Source: an uncultured Pelagibacteraceae bacterium (GTDB lineage Bacteria > Pseudomonadota > Alphaproteobacteria > Pelagibacterales > Pelagibacteraceae). Taken from it: 45,178 bases of DNA. Positions 6,237 to 29,056 of the stretch are shown here, piece after piece. The DNA is taken from the NCBI GenBank assembly GCA_902596785.1, contig CACJVG010000006.1:1-45178 (forward strand), given 5' to 3'. Numbering within the stretch: position 1 is the first letter of the stretch; each line of letters opens with the position of its first letter. The position numbers and the translations under genes are program-made. The notes beneath the pieces were generated by a model. That model did not search any database and was not told the origin of the DNA. It saw only the letters and a program-made list of their open reading frames with translations.

Positions 6237-7151
6237 TTGAAAAAAAGAATTTTAGTTACAGGTGGCACAGGTTTTATTGGCTATCATTTGTGTAAAGAGT
6301 TAAAAAAAAGAAATTATATTGTTCATAGCATTTCAACCAAAAGGCCACCTAAAATTAGATTTATAAAAGGTGTAAAATATATATTAACCGATATTTCAAA
6401 TTTAAAAAAAACTAAAAAAAATATAAAAAAAAATTTTTATAGTCATGTGGTTAATTTAGCTGGTTATGTAGACCATGGTAATAAAAAAAAAACTAATAGT
6501 TCACACTATATTGGATGTAAAAATTTATTTCAGATTTTTTTAAATTCTAATATAAAAAAATTTATTCAAATGGGTAGTAGTGGCGAGTATGGACAATTAA
6601 AATCTCCACATCAGGAAAATTTTAATAGCAAACCGTTAACTATTTATAATTTAGCAAAAAAAAAATCATCGGATTTCTTATTAAAAGCTTACAAAAAATA
6701 TAAATTTCCAGTTACAATTTTAAGATTATATTTAGCTTACGGTCCGAAGCAGGATGAGAATAGATTTATACCAATTGTATCAATAAATTGTCTTAAAAAT
6801 AAAAGTTTTGAATTATCTCATTGTAATCAATATCGTGATTTTATTTATGTCGAAGATGTTACTGATATTATAATCAAAACACTAAATAATAATAAAGCAA
6901 ACGGTGAAATAATAAATGTAGGCACCGGTAAAACTTTTAAATTAAAATCTATAGTCAATAAAATAAGAAAGCTCACTATGGGTGGTAAACCAATTTTTGG
7001 AGTAAAAAATCTAAGAAGAGATGAGATAAGTAAAATTTATCCAAACATAACTAAAGCAAAAAAAATTTTAAATTGGAAACCAAAAACGCCACTTAATAGA
7101 GGATTAATTAAAACAATTAAATATTACAAGAAAAATTATTGTTTATTTTAA
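6237..7151 (+). CDS. NAD(P)-dependent epimerase/reductase of a CDP-sugar pathway
   Basis: This is a 304-residue extended SDR. The nucleotide-binding motif TGGTGFIGYH spans residues 8-17. SSGEYGQ lies near 114-120, and the catalytic pair is Y137 and K141 in YNLAK. Further motifs are LRLYLAYGPKQDENRFIP, YRDFIYVEDV and NVGTGKTFKLKSI. The gene starts with TTG at 6237, one base after the previous stop, which leaves no room for another start. In CDP-deoxysugar clusters this position is held by the 4-reductase (abequose or paratose synthase) or a 4-epimerase; I cannot say which. It is the last plus-strand gene of the island and meets the minus-strand peptidase gene tail to tail, with 16 bp between. 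Confidence 0.75.
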   Translation: MKKRILVTGGTGFIGYHLCKELKKRNYIVHSISTKRPPKIRFIKGVKYILTDISNLKKTKKNIKKNFYSHVVNLAGYVDHGNKKKTNSSHYIGCKNLFQIFLNSNIKKFIQMGSSGEYGQLKSPHQENFNSKPLTIYNLAKKKSSDFLLKAYKKYKFPVTILRLYLAYGPKQDENRFIPIVSINCLKNKSFELSHCNQYRDFIYVEDVTDIIIKTLNNNKANGEIINVGTGKTFKLKSIVNKIRKLTMGGKPIFGVKNLRRDEISKIYPNITKAKKILNWKPKTPLNRGLIKTIKYYKKNYCLF

Positions 7152-24076: not shown

Positions 24077-26455
24077 ATGGACGTCAAAATTTCACTGCCA
24101 TTACTTCCTTTGAGAGACATTGTAGTCTTTCCAAGTATGGTGATACCTTTATTTGTAGGAAGAGATAAATCTATTTCAGCACTTAATGAAGTGATGAAAA
24201 AAGATAAAAAAATTATTTTAGTAACTCAAAAAAATTCAGAAATTGATGATCCTAAGAAAACAGATGTATTCATGTATGGTTGTGAAGGAAGTATTTTACA
24301 GTTGTTAAAATTACCAGATGGCACAGTTAAAGTTTTAGTTGAAGGTATTAAAAGAGTAAAAATTTTAGACTTTAAGGATAATGAGAAGTTTATCACATGT
24401 GATTACACACACTATAACGATGTTTCACCTAAAGAAGAGGATTTATTTCCTCTAGCTGCTACAGCTTTAAGAAGATTAGAAAAATTAACATCTATAAATA
24501 AAAAAATTTCTAATGAAACTATAAATACAATTAAACAATTAAAAGACCCGTCACAAATTGCAGATAATATTGCATCCCATATAACAGCTACTATTTCTGA
24601 AAAACAACAAATATTTGAAACTATAGATGTAAAGAAAAGATTAAACGCCATTATAAAAATAATGGAAAATGAGACAAGTATTATTGGTGTTGAAAAAAGA
24701 ATTAGAGGCAGAGTTAAAACTCAAATGGAAAAAACACAAAGAGAGTATTATTTAAATGAGCAGCTTAAAGCTATCCAAAAAGAACTTGGTGAAATTGAAG
24801 ACGGTAAAGATGAAACTACCAGTCTAAATAAAGCAATTACAAAAGCAAAGATGCCAAAAGAGGTAGAGAAGAAATGCCTACAAGAGTTAAAAAAATTAAA
24901 AAACATGAGCCCAATGTCTGCAGAGGCAACAGTTGTAAGAAATTATTTAGACTGGATGACAGAACTTCCTTGGCATAAAAAAAGTGAAGTAGATATAGAT
25001 TTAAAAAAAGCTTTAGATATTCTTGATAAAGATCATTTTGGGTTAGAAAAAGTTAAAGAAAGAATAATAGAATTTTTAGCTGTTCAAAAAAGAATGGAAA
25101 AAATTAAAGGCCCAATTTTATGTTTAGTTGGTCCTCCTGGTGTTGGAAAAACCTCATTAGGTAAATCAATTGCAAAAGCTACAAATAGGGAATTTGTTAG
25201 AATGTCAGTTGGTGGAATGAGAGATGAAGCAGAAATACGTGGACACAGAAGAACTTATATTGGATCTTTGCCAGGAAAAATCATTCAGATGATGAAAAAA
25301 GCTGGAACAAAAAATCCATTAATATTACTAGATGAAATTGATAAAATTGGAAATGATTATAGAGGAGACCCATCTTCAGCATTATTGGAAGCTCTAGATC
25401 CCGAACAAAATACAACATTTAACGATCATTATCTAGAAGTTGATTATGATTTATCTGATGTGATGTTTGTAACGACAGCCAATACTTTAAATATTTTACC
25501 TCCTTTATTAGATAGAATGGAAGTAATTAGATTAGCAGGTTACACAGAGGATGAAAAAATTAGTATTGCAAACAAATATTTATTACCAAAACAAATTAAA
25601 GATAATGGTGTTAAAGAAAAAGAAATGAAGTTGGATGATGATATTATAAAAGAAGTTATTAGAGGATATACAAAAGAGTCAGGTGTAAGAAATCTAGAAA
25701 GGGAAATTTCTAAACTAGCAAGAAAGGTTGTTAAAAAAATTGTAGCTGGTGAAGAAAAAGAAGTTGGAATAAATAATAAAAATTTATCTGATTTTTTAGG
25801 CGTGCCTAAATTCAAGTTTGGAGAACTAGAGACTGAAAATAGAGTAGGTATAGTAACAGGTCTTGCTTGGACTGAGTATGGTGGAGAAATTTTAAAAATT
25901 GAAACCGTTACAATGCCTGGTAAAGGGAGAATGCAAATCACCGGTAAATTAGGTGATGTAATGCAGGAGTCGGTTAAAGCTGCAAAATCTTTTGTAAGAT
26001 CAAAATGTTTAGAGTATGGCATTATTCCTCCTATTTTTGAGAAAAAAGATTTTCATATTCATGTTCCTGAAGGAGCTACACCAAAAGATGGCCCATCTGC
26101 TGGTATTGGAATGGTAACATCAATAGTCTCGTCAATTACAAACATTCCTGTACGAAGAGATGTTGCTATGACTGGTGAAGTTACTTTAACAGGTCAAGTA
26201 TTGCCAATTGGTGGTTTGAAAGAAAAATTATTAGCCGCTCATAGAGCTGGAATAAAAGAAGTTTTAATCCCTAAAGAGAATGAGAAAGATCTAGTGGATA
26301 TGCCAAAGAAAATTATAGATGACATTAAGATCACTCCAGTTGAATACGCTGATCAGGTTATAAAAATAGCTTTAACAAAAGAACTTAAACCCACAGAGTG
26401 GGTTGAGGTAGATTTATCTAAAAAAGACGATAAATCTCAAGCTAGTATTCAATAA
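24077..26455 (+). CDS. lon: ATP-dependent protease Lon
   Basis: This 792-residue LonA-type protease has the N-terminal substrate domain (PLLPLRDIVVFPSMVIPLFVGR), a coiled region (REYYLNEQLKAIQKELGE), and an AAA+ module with Walker A GPPGVGKT near 352-359 and Walker B ILLDEIDKIG. The C-terminal protease domain has the catalytic dyad Ser674 in DGPSAGIGM and Lys717 in GGLKEKLLAAHRAGIKE. Length and motifs are complete. It degrades misfolded and regulatory proteins. It follows clpX by 60 bp in the usual alphaproteobacterial order. Confidence 0.97.
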   Translation: MDVKISLPLLPLRDIVVFPSMVIPLFVGRDKSISALNEVMKKDKKIILVTQKNSEIDDPKKTDVFMYGCEGSILQLLKLPDGTVKVLVEGIKRVKILDFKDNEKFITCDYTHYNDVSPKEEDLFPLAATALRRLEKLTSINKKISNETINTIKQLKDPSQIADNIASHITATISEKQQIFETIDVKKRLNAIIKIMENETSIIGVEKRIRGRVKTQMEKTQREYYLNEQLKAIQKELGEIEDGKDETTSLNKAITKAKMPKEVEKKCLQELKKLKNMSPMSAEATVVRNYLDWMTELPWHKKSEVDIDLKKALDILDKDHFGLEKVKERIIEFLAVQKRMEKIKGPILCLVGPPGVGKTSLGKSIAKATNREFVRMSVGGMRDEAEIRGHRRTYIGSLPGKIIQMMKKAGTKNPLILLDEIDKIGNDYRGDPSSALLEALDPEQNTTFNDHYLEVDYDLSDVMFVTTANTLNILPPLLDRMEVIRLAGYTEDEKISIANKYLLPKQIKDNGVKEKEMKLDDDIIKEVIRGYTKESGVRNLEREISKLARKVVKKIVAGEEKEVGINNKNLSDFLGVPKFKFGELETENRVGIVTGLAWTEYGGEILKIETVTMPGKGRMQITGKLGDVMQESVKAAKSFVRSKCLEYGIIPPIFEKKDFHIHVPEGATPKDGPSAGIGMVTSIVSSITNIPVRRDVAMTGEVTLTGQVLPIGGLKEKLLAAHRAGIKEVLIPKENEKDLVDMPKKIIDDIKITPVEYADQVIKIALTKELKPTEWVEVDLSKKDDKSQASIQ

Positions 26456-26503: not shown

Positions 26504-26579
26504 GGGCGGTTAGCTCAGTTGGTAGAGCATCTCGTTTACACCGAGGGGGTCAAAGGTTCGAGTCCTTTACTGCCCACCA
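26504..26579 (+). tRNA. tRNA-Val (anticodon UAC)
   Basis: This is a 76-base cloverleaf. The acceptor arms are GGGCGGT and ACTGCCC with one G-T pair. The D-arm has AGCTCAGTTGGTAGAGC. The anticodon stem TCTCG/CGAGG encloses TTTACAC (anticodon TAC), and the T-arm has GGTTCGAGTCC. Discriminator A and CCA are encoded. The convergent glycosyltransferase-like gene ends 4 bp downstream. Confidence 0.95.
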
Positions 26580-26582
26580 TTA

Positions 26583-28397
26583 TTAAATTATATTTTTAAT
26601 TTTATTAAATAAACTTATATCAGTTTCTAGTACTCTCATTTTATTTTTTTTTATTTTCAAAATAATATTATTAAAAAAATCATAATCTTGCATAATTTTT
26701 TTTGATAGTTTCAGATACTCTGAGTAATCATTAGCTATTAGTTCTTTTAAATTGATTTCATTAAGTATTGCAGCTGTATGATTGCCTCTAAGTGTATTAC
26801 CTTTCAATGTTACTATTGGTTTATCTAAATACAAAGCTTCTAAACTTGAGTTACCTCCAGACCAACCAATTGAGTCTAGAATAACACTATATTTTGATAG
26901 TTCTTTATAAAAATCAATTTGTTTCATTCTATTTAAAAATTTAATTCTATCAAAATTTTCTCTAATGAATTTATTTTTTTTAAGTCTATTTTTAAAAAGA
27001 TCAGTGTAGCAAGGGTCTTTATCTTTTATAAATGTAATTGATGCTTTATTATTTTCTTCTAATATTTTACCATATAAATAATCATATTTTGGGAGTAGCT
27101 TAAACAAACTTTGAGGCACAAAAAAAGAATTTTTAAGTTTAGGCTGTTTTTCTAAATTTATTAAATCCTCATCTAATTTATAATTTGTACCCAAACCTTC
27201 TAGAAGTATTAATTTTTCAATATACTGATCATCGTTGTTATCATCCATAGATTTTGAAGAAATAAAATAATCAACATTTTTTGATCCTGTTGTTATTGGG
27301 TGACCCCACATCATAAAATAATTTTTTGCATATTTTTTGTTTATTATCATTTGTGATAAATGATCCATTGAATGATCTAAAAAAATTGCAGAATTGAATT
27401 TTTCTTTAATCATAAAATTATGAATTTGATTAATATTAGTAATATTATTATAAATTAATTTCATTTTTTTTAATTTTTCTGTCCAATCATCTTTAGTGAT
27501 AGAAGTATGTAAAATATGTACTTCAAGATTCTTTTTGGGTTCTGAAAATTCTTTAATAAAATTAAAAAACAATTTTAAAACAGTATGTTTGTAAAAAAAG
27601 GGAGATATAAAAACTATTTTTCTTTTATAAAAAAAATTTTGATCTGGTAGATTTAATTTTCTTACATCAATACTTTCTAATAATTTATAATATTTCTTAT
27701 TTAAATCTAAATCATTTTTTTGTTGATAAGCTAAATAGAAGTTTGAGTCAGTATTGAGAATTTTAATAGATTCATTTATATTTAGTTTGTTTTCACCAAC
27801 TTTCTTATTAAGAATGTTAAGAATTTTTTCAAATTTATTTCTAAAATAATTAATCTCTCTAGTATTTTTATAGACCCTTGGGAAAGTAAGTAGGTTTAAA
27901 AAATTAATTTGCAAATTCCCATTTAAGGATTTTTCAAAATAAGTTTTTGCTGGATTAAAATTGCCTAATGCTAAATTACAAACACCTAACAAATAATTAG
28001 CTTCATCATTATCTATTTCTTTAAGATAATTTTTTGCATTTTCATAATCAAATTTTTGAATTAATAGATATGATTTTACCAATATCGAGTCTACATTTTT
28101 AGATATCTTTAAAGATTTATCAATTTGTTCTTCTGCATAATTTATATCAATAGTCTTAAATAAATTTGCTAAATTGTAATATGGTTTATAATTGTTCAAA
28201 TCCAAACTTATTGAAATTTCAAAAAAATATTTTGCAAAATTTCTTTTATTCAAATTAGCTAAAACAGTTCCAAGTTTATTTGCTATATCACTATCTTTTT
28301 TGAGTTTATAAATTTTAATTAAATCTTTAAAATTTTGCCTATAATTTCTATTCTTAAAGTCTAGGTAAATTTTTCTTAATAATTTTTCTTGGTCCAT
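26583..28397 (-). CDS. TPR/O-GlcNAc-transferase-like (GT41-type) glycosyltransferase
   Basis: This 604-residue protein has an N-terminal helical repeat region (about residues 1-170) with TPR-like spacing (NKLGTVLANLNKRNFAKYFF, YYNLANLFKTIDINYAEEQI). A glycosyltransferase half resembles SPINDLY/OGT: KIVFISPFFYKHTVLKLFF, SAIFLDHSMDHLSQM, MMWGHPITTGSKNVDYFISS, and near the C-terminus VILDSIGWSGGNSSLEALYL with KPIVTLKGNTLRGNHTAAIL. The last block is the donor-binding part of the GT41 fold. It may glycosylate a protein or surface polymer; acceptor and sugar are unknown. It lies alone on the minus strand between tRNA-Val and tRNA-Asp, where related genomes usually go directly from lon and tRNAs to nuoA. 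Its composition is extremely AT-rich. Confidence 0.75.
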   Translation of the reverse strand: MDQEKLLRKIYLDFKNRNYRQNFKDLIKIYKLKKDSDIANKLGTVLANLNKRNFAKYFFEISISLDLNNYKPYYNLANLFKTIDINYAEEQIDKSLKISKNVDSILVKSYLLIQKFDYENAKNYLKEIDNDEANYLLGVCNLALGNFNPAKTYFEKSLNGNLQINFLNLLTFPRVYKNTREINYFRNKFEKILNILNKKVGENKLNINESIKILNTDSNFYLAYQQKNDLDLNKKYYKLLESIDVRKLNLPDQNFFYKRKIVFISPFFYKHTVLKLFFNFIKEFSEPKKNLEVHILHTSITKDDWTEKLKKMKLIYNNITNINQIHNFMIKEKFNSAIFLDHSMDHLSQMIINKKYAKNYFMMWGHPITTGSKNVDYFISSKSMDDNNDDQYIEKLILLEGLGTNYKLDEDLINLEKQPKLKNSFFVPQSLFKLLPKYDYLYGKILEENNKASITFIKDKDPCYTDLFKNRLKKNKFIRENFDRIKFLNRMKQIDFYKELSKYSVILDSIGWSGGNSSLEALYLDKPIVTLKGNTLRGNHTAAILNEINLKELIANDYSEYLKLSKKIMQDYDFFNNIILKIKKNKMRVLETDISLFNKIKNII

Positions 28398-28523
28398 TTA
28401 TTAGTTTTTAATATCAAAATAGTCATTTTTTATGTATAGGAATATAACTTTTATCTGATATAAGATTTTTTTTATTAAAATAAACTATAAATTAGTAGGC
28501 ATTATATTAGTTTGTTTATTAGT

Positions 28524-28600
28524 GGGGGTGTAGCTCAGTTGGTTAGAGCGATCGCCTGTCACGCGATAGGTCGAGGGTTCGAGTCCCTTCACTCCCGCCA
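28524..28600 (+). tRNA. tRNA-Asp (anticodon GUC)
   Basis: This is a 77-base cloverleaf. The acceptor arms are GGGGGTG and CACTCCC with one G-T pair. The D-arm has AGCTCAGTTGGTTAGAGC. The anticodon stem ATCGC/GCGAT encloses CTGTCAC (anticodon GTC), and the T-arm has GGTTCGAGTCCC. Discriminator G and CCA are encoded. It lies 88 bp before nuoA on the same strand. Confidence 0.95.
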
Positions 28601-28687: not shown

Positions 28688-29056
28688 ATGTTATCTGATT
28701 TTTTAAAAGATTACCTACCAATAATAATATTTTTAGTTTTAGCTCTTGGGTTAAGTTGTGCTTTTGTGGTTGTAAACTTTATTCTATCACCTAAAAAACC
28801 TGATCCTGAAAAACTTTCAGCTTATGAGTGTGGTTTTGAACCATTCGAGGATTCAAGAATGGAATTTGATGTGAGATTTTATTTAGTTGCAATTCTATTT
28901 ATTATTTTTGATTTAGAGATAGCATTTTTATTTCCATGGGCAATATCTCTTGGAAATATTGGATTATTAGGTTTTTCATCAATGATGATTTTTTTGTTCA
29001 TTCTTACAATAGGTTTTATTTATGAATGGAAAAAAGGTGCTTTAGACTGGGAATAA
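28688..29056 (+). CDS. nuoA: NADH-quinone oxidoreductase subunit A
   Basis: This 122-residue membrane subunit of complex I has three membrane helices. The loop [20 protein letters not shown] (near residues 41-60) contains the conserved Cys of the ND3 loop, which moves between active and resting states. [20 protein letters not shown] follows with the conserved membrane acidic residues. It is the first gene of a continuous nuoA-N operon, 88 bp after tRNA-Asp. Confidence 0.97.

Follow-up and report, generated by a model that had tools for sequence, protein, structure and literature searches.

A GT41-type glycosyltransferase gene in a strain-variable gap between tRNA-Val and tRNA-Asp upstream of nuoA in a Pelagibacteraceae genome

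What is a lone glycosyltransferase gene doing between two tRNA genes, on the strand opposed to its neighbours, and how did it come to be there? The question arises at positions 26504-28600 of a 45,178-nucleotide stretch of DNA (the window) from an uncultured Pelagibacteraceae bacterium (assembly GCA_902596785.1, contig CACJVG010000006.1; a draft genome of 967,085 bases in 53 contigs, 76.76% complete), where the gene for a protein that we call P0001 lies between lon and the nuo operon. Few cells in the sea are as abundant as SAR11 bacteria, which have little spare DNA, so gene gain and loss in them bears on surface variation and on encounters with phages. We consider it reasonably probable that this is a single gene of the glycosyltransferase 41 (GT41) type, recently gained at a site that receives different genes, several of them of surface-glycan type; that its donor sugar is probably one without an N-acetyl group; and that its role lies in varying a glycosylated product.

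The region is bounded exactly by two tRNA genes that ARAGORN calls on the plus strand: tRNA-Val(TAC) at 26504-26579, with its CCA end included and intact, and tRNA-Asp(GTC) at 28524-28600. The flanking protein genes, lon (24077-26455) and nuoA (28688-29056), are also on the plus strand. Between the tRNAs the sole open reading frame (ORF) of at least 80 residues is that of P0001 (26583-28397, minus strand, 604 residues); it is free of internal stops, its stop codon lies 3 bp from the CCA end of tRNA-Val, and its start codon lies 126 bp from tRNA-Asp. An earlier reading of the letters by themselves (the sequence-only reading) had placed a minus-strand gene here, running opposite to its near neighbours, and both statements are confirmed. 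The insert has a G+C content of 20.5%, compared with 30.8% for lon and 28.1% for nuoA. P0001 is not a chance ORF, since it has a full-length homologue of 55% identity in another genome of the genus (G582), and the differences between the two genes at codon positions 1, 2 and 3 (0.338, 0.201 and 0.479) have the pattern indicative of purifying selection.

A first answer comes from relatives, in which the same place is empty. We read the region upstream of nuoA in 52 congener genomes (loci L086-L137, a non-random set selected for the most part by high NuoA identity or by completeness) and in eight genomes of other genera. The two tRNAs are separated by 6-27 bp without a gene in 51 of the 52 congener loci (12-14 bp in 41 of the 51); the sole exception is L119 (genome G606). 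A second survey, partly overlapping the first, used the tRNA pair and its spacer (165 bases) as a query against 149 genus genomes, a set made up of the window genome and others of 80% completeness or more; our genus samples were drawn from a larger group and have genomes in common. This query found a match in 120 genomes: 117 at full length, one ended by a contig edge (G674), and two split, in the window genome and in G633. The window matches the query only at positions 1-76 and 86-165; it keeps no base of the left spacer and at most AGT (28521-28523) of the right, so that comparison with the empty sites places the inserted stretch at 26580-28520. The closest relatives by lon DNA all carry the empty site (L086, 94.1%; L088, 93.5%; L087, 92.5%), and the nuoA gene of L087 is 99.7% identical to that of the window. 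Because these nearest relatives are empty, the simplest reading is that the filled state arose in the window genome, and we infer a gain of the gene rather than many losses. Furthermore, 54 homologous loci were read with up to 1.5 kb of flanking sequence, and neither tRNA-Val nor tRNA-Asp lies alongside the gene in any of them. The sequence-only reading had named the presence of the gene at this site in close relatives as the outcome that would refute it, and that outcome was not observed. These comparisons support the proposal, also made in the sequence-only reading, that the tRNA-Val/tRNA-Asp gap is a small cargo site variable between strains: close relatives have it empty, and some further genomes have other cargo in it.

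That other cargo consists of a different single gene in each of three further genomes. In G606 (L119) a minus-strand gene directly after the tRNA-Val CCA encodes a glycosyltransferase family 2 (GT2) enzyme of 333 residues (Pfam, 3.6e-19); G633 (L254) has an ORF of 396 residues on the minus strand that looks hydrophobic and overlaps tRNA-Val at its 3' end; and G635 (L243) has a 379-residue plus-strand ORF. The last of these was found with a sequence pattern (a non-A base after CCA) that favours inserts beginning immediately after CCA: it matched 53 of 399 genomes, comprising the window genome, G606, G633, 12 that were read as loci (11 intact, and the interrupted G635) and 38 that were left unopened. 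Neither the G633 nor the G635 gene has a family in Pfam or NCBIfam. We also observed two tRNA-Asp copies after the cargo of G606, with a single tRNA-Val (6613-6933 of L119).

Genes of a comparable kind occur one step upstream, between lon and tRNA-Val. Where lon lies within the fetched stretch (45 of the 52 loci), the distance from lon to tRNA-Val is at most 300 bp in 41 and a gene-bearing 1.2-3.5 kb in four. These four hold GT2 genes (L099 and L107), a UDP-N-acetylglucosamine (UDP-GlcNAc) 2-epimerase (L107), a GDSL-like protein under the Pfam cut-off (L091) and an FAD-binding oxidase (L092, the locus of G582). We take the oxidase to be DprE1-like, and its neighbours, by reading of their translations, are presumably UbiA-like and short-chain-dehydrogenase-like proteins: possibly a decaprenyl-phospho-arabinose-type set in a SAR11 genome. 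The seven loci in which lon was not seen differ among themselves. Five (L111, L120, L122, L128 and L133) share a block of four ORFs of near-equal lengths before tRNA-Val, metabolic rather than glycan genes by our reading; the cargo of L132 reads as sugar-biosynthesis-like genes; and L129 has many short ORFs before tRNA-Val. The variation in this region is therefore not all glycan cargo. Across the window insert and the eight other cargos measured, the G+C content is 19.6-24.2%.

How did the insert arrive? Insertion by a tRNA-targeting tyrosine recombinase (of a phage, a satellite or a tycheposon), with the integrase since lost, is in our estimation possible and rather unlikely. The left junction falls immediately after the tRNA-Val CCA in the window, G606 and G633 (also in G635, but there the search pattern required it), and a SAR11 prophage is described in a tRNA-Val, isoacceptor unspecified, of the single cell SAG-MED28 (PMC7542561; this and the other papers are cited from excerpts). 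On the other hand, no copy of the tRNA-Val 3' end was found at the right border, which shows only the natural similarity of the two tRNAs and A+T-rich stretches; the partial tRNA repeats at the gene's ends that the sequence-only reading had suggested looking for were not found either. The 1.9-kb insert contains no integrase or tyrosine recombinase and no second ORF of the size given above. An exact 23-base match against IMG/VR gave no attP-like tRNA-Val 3' fragment, and the two matched contigs carry a tRNA-Val gene (cut by the contig end and uncalled by ARAGORN in one, L257). Moreover, with a 12-bp spacer every viable insert must lie near a tRNA. The exact left junction is compatible with a lost integrase, though the 12-bp spacer between two tRNAs leaves little other room, and we infer that recombination through the conserved flanks is at least as likely. 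Nor is carriage of the GT41 gene by phages supported, because the searches gave weak, no or generic matches: two weak relatives of P0001 in IMG/VR (20-21% identity), none in phage records at E 1e-3, and, among the 50 BFVD matches listed, mostly generic glycosyltransferases with low template-modelling (TM) scores.

As a separate observation, three contigs of the viral collection (L257, L258 and L260) bear SAR11-like tRNAs: at 8350-8505 of L258 (242,646 bases) the window's tRNA-Val recurs identically over 76 bases and is followed at 4 bp by a tRNA-Asp, and L260 has the window's tRNA-Asp, identical over 77 bases. Near such tRNAs lie what we take, by reading of translations, to be ClpX-, Suf- and IF-3-like ORFs.

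The site has likenesses among known flexible regions. The SAR11 O-chain cluster in hypervariable region (HVR) 2, between 23S and 5S, is likewise variable cargo, there of a cell-surface kind, and has moved to a tRNA in genomospecies Ib.4 (PMC11898729), and HVR4 is likewise flanked by tRNAs (PMC2217521); the window site differs from these islands in that a single gene occupies the 12-bp spacer of two tRNAs, with lon and nuoA on either side. Tycheposons, of Prochlorococcus and Methylophilaceae, share the tRNA border and variable cargo, whereas the window insert has no tyrosine recombinase and no tRNA repeat and measures 1.9 kb rather than 4-200 kb (excerpt of PMC10872708). A description of the lon-nuoA tRNA spacer was not found in the literature searched, which left most subscription papers outside and did not include a comparison with the published HVRs.

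What, then, does the gene encode? P0001 matches the Pfam family Glyco_transf_41 (PF13844; 32.8 bits for a cut-off of 25, E 3.1e-8) over residues 506-588 only, and the tetratricopeptide repeat (TPR) family TPR_8 (26.2 bits, cut-off 25.7) at residues 132-158; NCBIfam gave no match above its cut-off. Among solved structures, phmmer ranks the O-linked N-acetylglucosamine (O-GlcNAc) transferase (OGT) of Thermobaculum terrenum (TtOGT, 5djs; 5.1e-11) beside SPINDLY (6.9e-11), followed by fly OGT (1.6e-4) and human OGT (8.4e-4). An AlphaFold model built from P0001 and 41 relatives reached a predicted local distance difference test (pLDDT) of 91.4 and a predicted TM score of 0.90. With VIA-align it is closest to SPINDLY (8dtf; Z 35.6, root-mean-square deviation (rmsd) 5.0, 549 aligned), XcOGT (2jlb; Z 34.8, rmsd 4.5, 504 aligned), TtOGT (Z 34.7, rmsd 5.8, 476 aligned) and the N-glycosyltransferase (NGT) AaNGT (8p0q; Z 34.4, rmsd 4.5, 505 aligned); Z is 32.5-35.6 over 430-550 residues to SPINDLY, XcOGT, TtOGT and NGT structures and at most 29.1 to fly and human OGT. 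As modelled, P0001 joins a TPR part to a GT-B fold and belongs to the GT41 superfamily, which bears out the fold proposed in the sequence-only reading. A TPR-like helical region at about residues 19-169 (27891-28343, minus strand; TPR_8 and helix pairs of the model) precedes a GT-B catalytic domain at about residues 257-604 (26586-27629, minus strand). Because their Z values tie or nearly tie, the fold does not choose among SPINDLY, XcOGT, TtOGT and AaNGT.

Each of these relatives is only a partial guide. SPINDLY, a GT41 protein O-fucosyltransferase of Arabidopsis (8dtf, 7y4i), is the top structural match, with the same TPR plus GT-B plan and catalytic lysine, and its ribose-contact glutamate (E752) is retained as E520; P0001 has fewer TPRs than SPINDLY and a GHP in place of its GYP motif. 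TtOGT is likewise bacterial, with a short TPR part, an aromatic gatekeeper and no counterpart of the human intervening domain, and is the best phmmer match, yet it shows 16% identity in the structural alignment. The HMW1C-like N-glycosyltransferases (3q3e, 8p0q, 8j30) resemble P0001 in the GT-B fold (Z 33-34) and in an aromatic gatekeeper; they were reached by profile and are not among its single-sequence matches at E <= 1, and the comparison is limited to fold and gatekeeper, the N-terminal part of P0001 being TPR by Pfam. Human OGT shares the superfamily and the catalytic lysine.

The donor sugar is best approached through the catalytic pocket. Lys433 (codon 27099-27101, minus strand) aligns in phmmer with SPINDLY K665, equivalent to human OGT K842, and with K341 of TtOGT, mutated in that structure (K341M chain); it is invariant in 20 of 20 rows of one family alignment (A1) and 42 of 42 of the other (A2), and the equivalent lysine is described as essential or catalytic (PMC9715652, PMC4683255). 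His271 corresponds to human H558 by way of SPINDLY H495 (PMC9715652), an equivalence that ruled out human H498 as its counterpart. The TTT/HTT stretch (T747-T749 of SPINDLY) reads G-N-S in P0001, with the asparagine in 42 of 42 (A2) and 19 of 20 (A1) rows.

Another key position is the residue that may set the size of the pocket: SPINDLY Y744, human C917, XcOGT Y463, TtOGT Y419 and ApHMW1C F517 (PMC9715652). In P0001 it is Trp512 (codon 26862-26864, minus strand), and the family column has 31 tryptophans and 11 phenylalanines in 42 rows. According to the same excerpt, TtOGT is without O-GlcNAc activity in vitro, XcOGT has almost none, and HMW1C uses UDP-glucose. UDP-GlcNAc is an unlikely donor, judged from the aligned residues, because this gatekeeper is a tryptophan and not a cysteine as in human OGT. 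The nucleotide contacts are mixed: where K689 and A731 of SPINDLY contact GDP, and L866 and R904 of human OGT contact UDP (PMC10027727), P0001 has Lys458 and Glu499, the latter placed by an ungapped offset from D508 = SPINDLY D740 in the phmmer alignment. A mixed set is likewise reported for an intermediate prokaryotic group (PMC10027727). P0001 keeps one of the three SPINDLY signature residues (K689, A731 and Y744 become K458, E499 and W512).

These residues bear on a rival view, that P0001 is a true O-GlcNAc transferase marking cytosolic proteins as a signal. It has the Pfam GT41 match, the TPR plus GT-B architecture and the retained catalytic lysine in its favour. However, Trp512 stands in place of the small gatekeeper Cys917, at a position where TtOGT, XcOGT and HMW1C have aromatic residues; the uracil-contact Arg904 is replaced by Glu499; and the fold is nearer to SPINDLY, XcOGT, TtOGT and NGT than to fly or human OGT. 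We consider this view very unlikely. Thus, of the sequence-only reading, the cargo site, the GT41 fold and the opposed orientation hold, and the O-GlcNAc activity finds no support. The label that the sequence supports is GT41 glycosyltransferase without a donor assignment; 'O-GlcNAc transferase' is not supported.

We propose instead that one glycosyltransferase gene entered the approximately 12-bp spacer between tRNA-Val and tRNA-Asp, at a site that receives different genes in different SAR11 genomes, several of them surface-glycan-type. P0001 is probably cytosolic. By analogy with SPINDLY, OGT and HMW1C, an acceptor protein would lie in its TPR groove, the nucleotide sugar would be bound by the two GT-B lobes with Lys433 steadying the diphosphate, and the sugar would pass to the acceptor with inversion; the bulky Trp512 would favour sugars that carry no N-acetyl group on C2, for instance a hexose or deoxyhexose. 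The gene would probably serve to diversify a glycosylated product, secreted or at the cell surface and perhaps in defence against phages, and not to send O-GlcNAc signals inside the cell. This role is our best guess because two members of the P0001 clade (below) adjoin sugar dehydratase/epimerase and glycosyltransferase genes: in G582 the next genes encode a sugar-nucleotidyl-transferase-type (NTP transferase) protein, an NAD-dependent epimerase/dehydratase and a GT4 enzyme, and in G591 the GT41, epimerase/dehydratase and GT2 genes form a run ending 2 bp before tRNA-Leu(caa). The same neighbours, and some of the alternative cargos, are surface-polysaccharide-like, as expected if the transferase acted on a polysaccharide or lipid-linked glycan and not on protein. 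That alternative seems doubtful to us: in the excerpts consulted, the TPR-bearing GT41 enzymes of known function (SPINDLY, human OGT) modify proteins, and the TPR part is as conserved between the window and G582 (56%) as the catalytic part (55-57%).

Is the gene old in SAR11? A match was found in 77 of 397 genomes of a family sample (E <= 1e-5) and in 43 of 399 of a genus sample (E <= 1e-20), the window's own included in each; up to three candidates were scored per genome, so that paralogues may be missed. Among 200 relatives only the window's own genome and G400 matched at E <= 1e-45. A single-protein scan of genome contigs found no relative of P0001, and an alignment-based scan found 262, of which the best 80 were kept. 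The only close homologues in the genus sample are those of G582 and G711 (52%). The G711 homologue (L147, 6748-8157) is broken by four in-frame stops, which implies that the gene has also been lost after gain. In a tree of 54 proteins P0001 groups with G582 (100/100), then with proteins of two other genera, g7 and g9 (98/97), then with G591 (98/98); G711 and a third g7 copy (G030) are outside the tree and were placed by identity and site.

This clade accounts for eight of the 54 loci (three g7, two g9, G582, G711 and G591), and a tRNA lies alongside the gene in five of the eight as against none of the other 46, a tally in which the g7 copies and the g9 copies are not independent. The five are three g7 loci by tRNA-Leu(tag) and two g9 loci by tRNA-Leu(taa). 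The clade occupies five genomic sites, at three of which, in three genera, the gene is directly beside a tRNA and divergent from it, at 59 bp (g7), 34-76 bp (g9) and 126 bp (window). G582 and G711 had been candidates for tRNA adjacency and were dropped, because tRNA-Met is 4.7 kb away in G582, with a GMP reductase gene in between, and 1.65 kb away in G711. Eight loci of the sister group showed no tRNA within the 6.7-16 kb read. In g7 the gene adjoins tRNA-Leu(tag), ahead of tig-clpP-clpX-lon, and in g9 it is located some 3.1 kb upstream of nuoA; both sites share the broader surroundings of the window gene.

This shared neighbourhood is what speaks for an old resident gene lost from nearly all relatives. 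We regard that history as a shade less likely still than O-GlcNAc signalling: neither the exact positions nor the tRNAs agree, the genus has a uniformly short empty spacer, and G582 and G711 have their copies, the nearest homologues, at another locus, with the spacer of G582 (L092) empty. We return to recent gain. The tRNA association of the clade and its neighbourhood form a post hoc pattern, and a suggestive one. A bolder and quite tentative idea is that one TPR-GT41 lineage travels among tRNA-flanking sites of Pelagibacterales (tRNA-Asp in the window, tRNA-Leu(tag) in g7, tRNA-Leu(taa) in g9, tRNA-Leu(caa) in G591) as a glycotype cassette made of a single gene, which would bring its own divergent tRNA promoter, lack an integrase and use a donor sugar new to GT41.

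Several points weigh against the reading that we prefer. The insert is known from one genome, a draft assembly, and the evidence is assembled sequence; a chimera of assembly or binning is nevertheless the least probable of the explanations considered, as both tRNAs and the coding frame are intact and inserts also occur in this gap in three further genomes. The 29 of 149 genomes without a match to the tRNA pair stand outside the tally of empty and filled sites. Glycan cargo is not proven throughout, because two of the four genes found in the gap could be given no family. The gene of G017, in the sister clade, has 2-oxoglutarate-dehydrogenase-type genes on one side, priA/ATP-synthase genes on the other and no glycan genes beside it. 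As to the enzyme, the gatekeeper logic rests on few examples, and Lys458, the guanine-contact equivalent, is present in only four of 42 family rows; this variation leaves the nucleotide of the donor unsettled.

The finding is of an ordinary kind, a useful new example both of a GT41 enzyme and of a tRNA-bordered flexible site. The pocket residue Trp512 is unusual, and the contrast of empty and filled sites is a neat one, at a short, well-defined place outside the large O-chain island. The pocket points away from the activity that an O-GlcNAc name implies, a caution that fold alone is insufficient for annotating bacterial GT41 genes as O-GlcNAc transferases. Our literature search found no paper mentioning both Pelagibacter and SPINDLY.

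The divergent stretch between the gene start and tRNA-Asp (28398-28523, 126 bp) would have to hold the tRNA-Asp promoter if the tRNA pair was formerly one transcript; a promoter and terminator scan of the region gave 16 promoter-like sites, compared with 17.6 in shuffles, and no terminators. Among the g9 loci before nuoA, the two with the GT41 gene (L138, L139) have tRNA-Leu(taa), and the three that lack the gene (L140-L142) have tRNA-Thr(tgt); an apparent lon in L140 proved to be a weak partial match and not lon. We also noted a second SAR11 GT41-like branch of about 555-566 residues (L068-L070, L072, L074, L080, L158 and others), with a phenylalanine gatekeeper in the aligned rows and no tRNA in the scanned flanks. 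Finally, the tRNA-Val/tRNA-Asp pair is tandemly duplicated in L099 (G427; 6432-6844) and L107 (G590; 6431-6843), both of which bear cargo just upstream of the duplication; duplication of the pair followed by loss may be a route for cargo into the gap.

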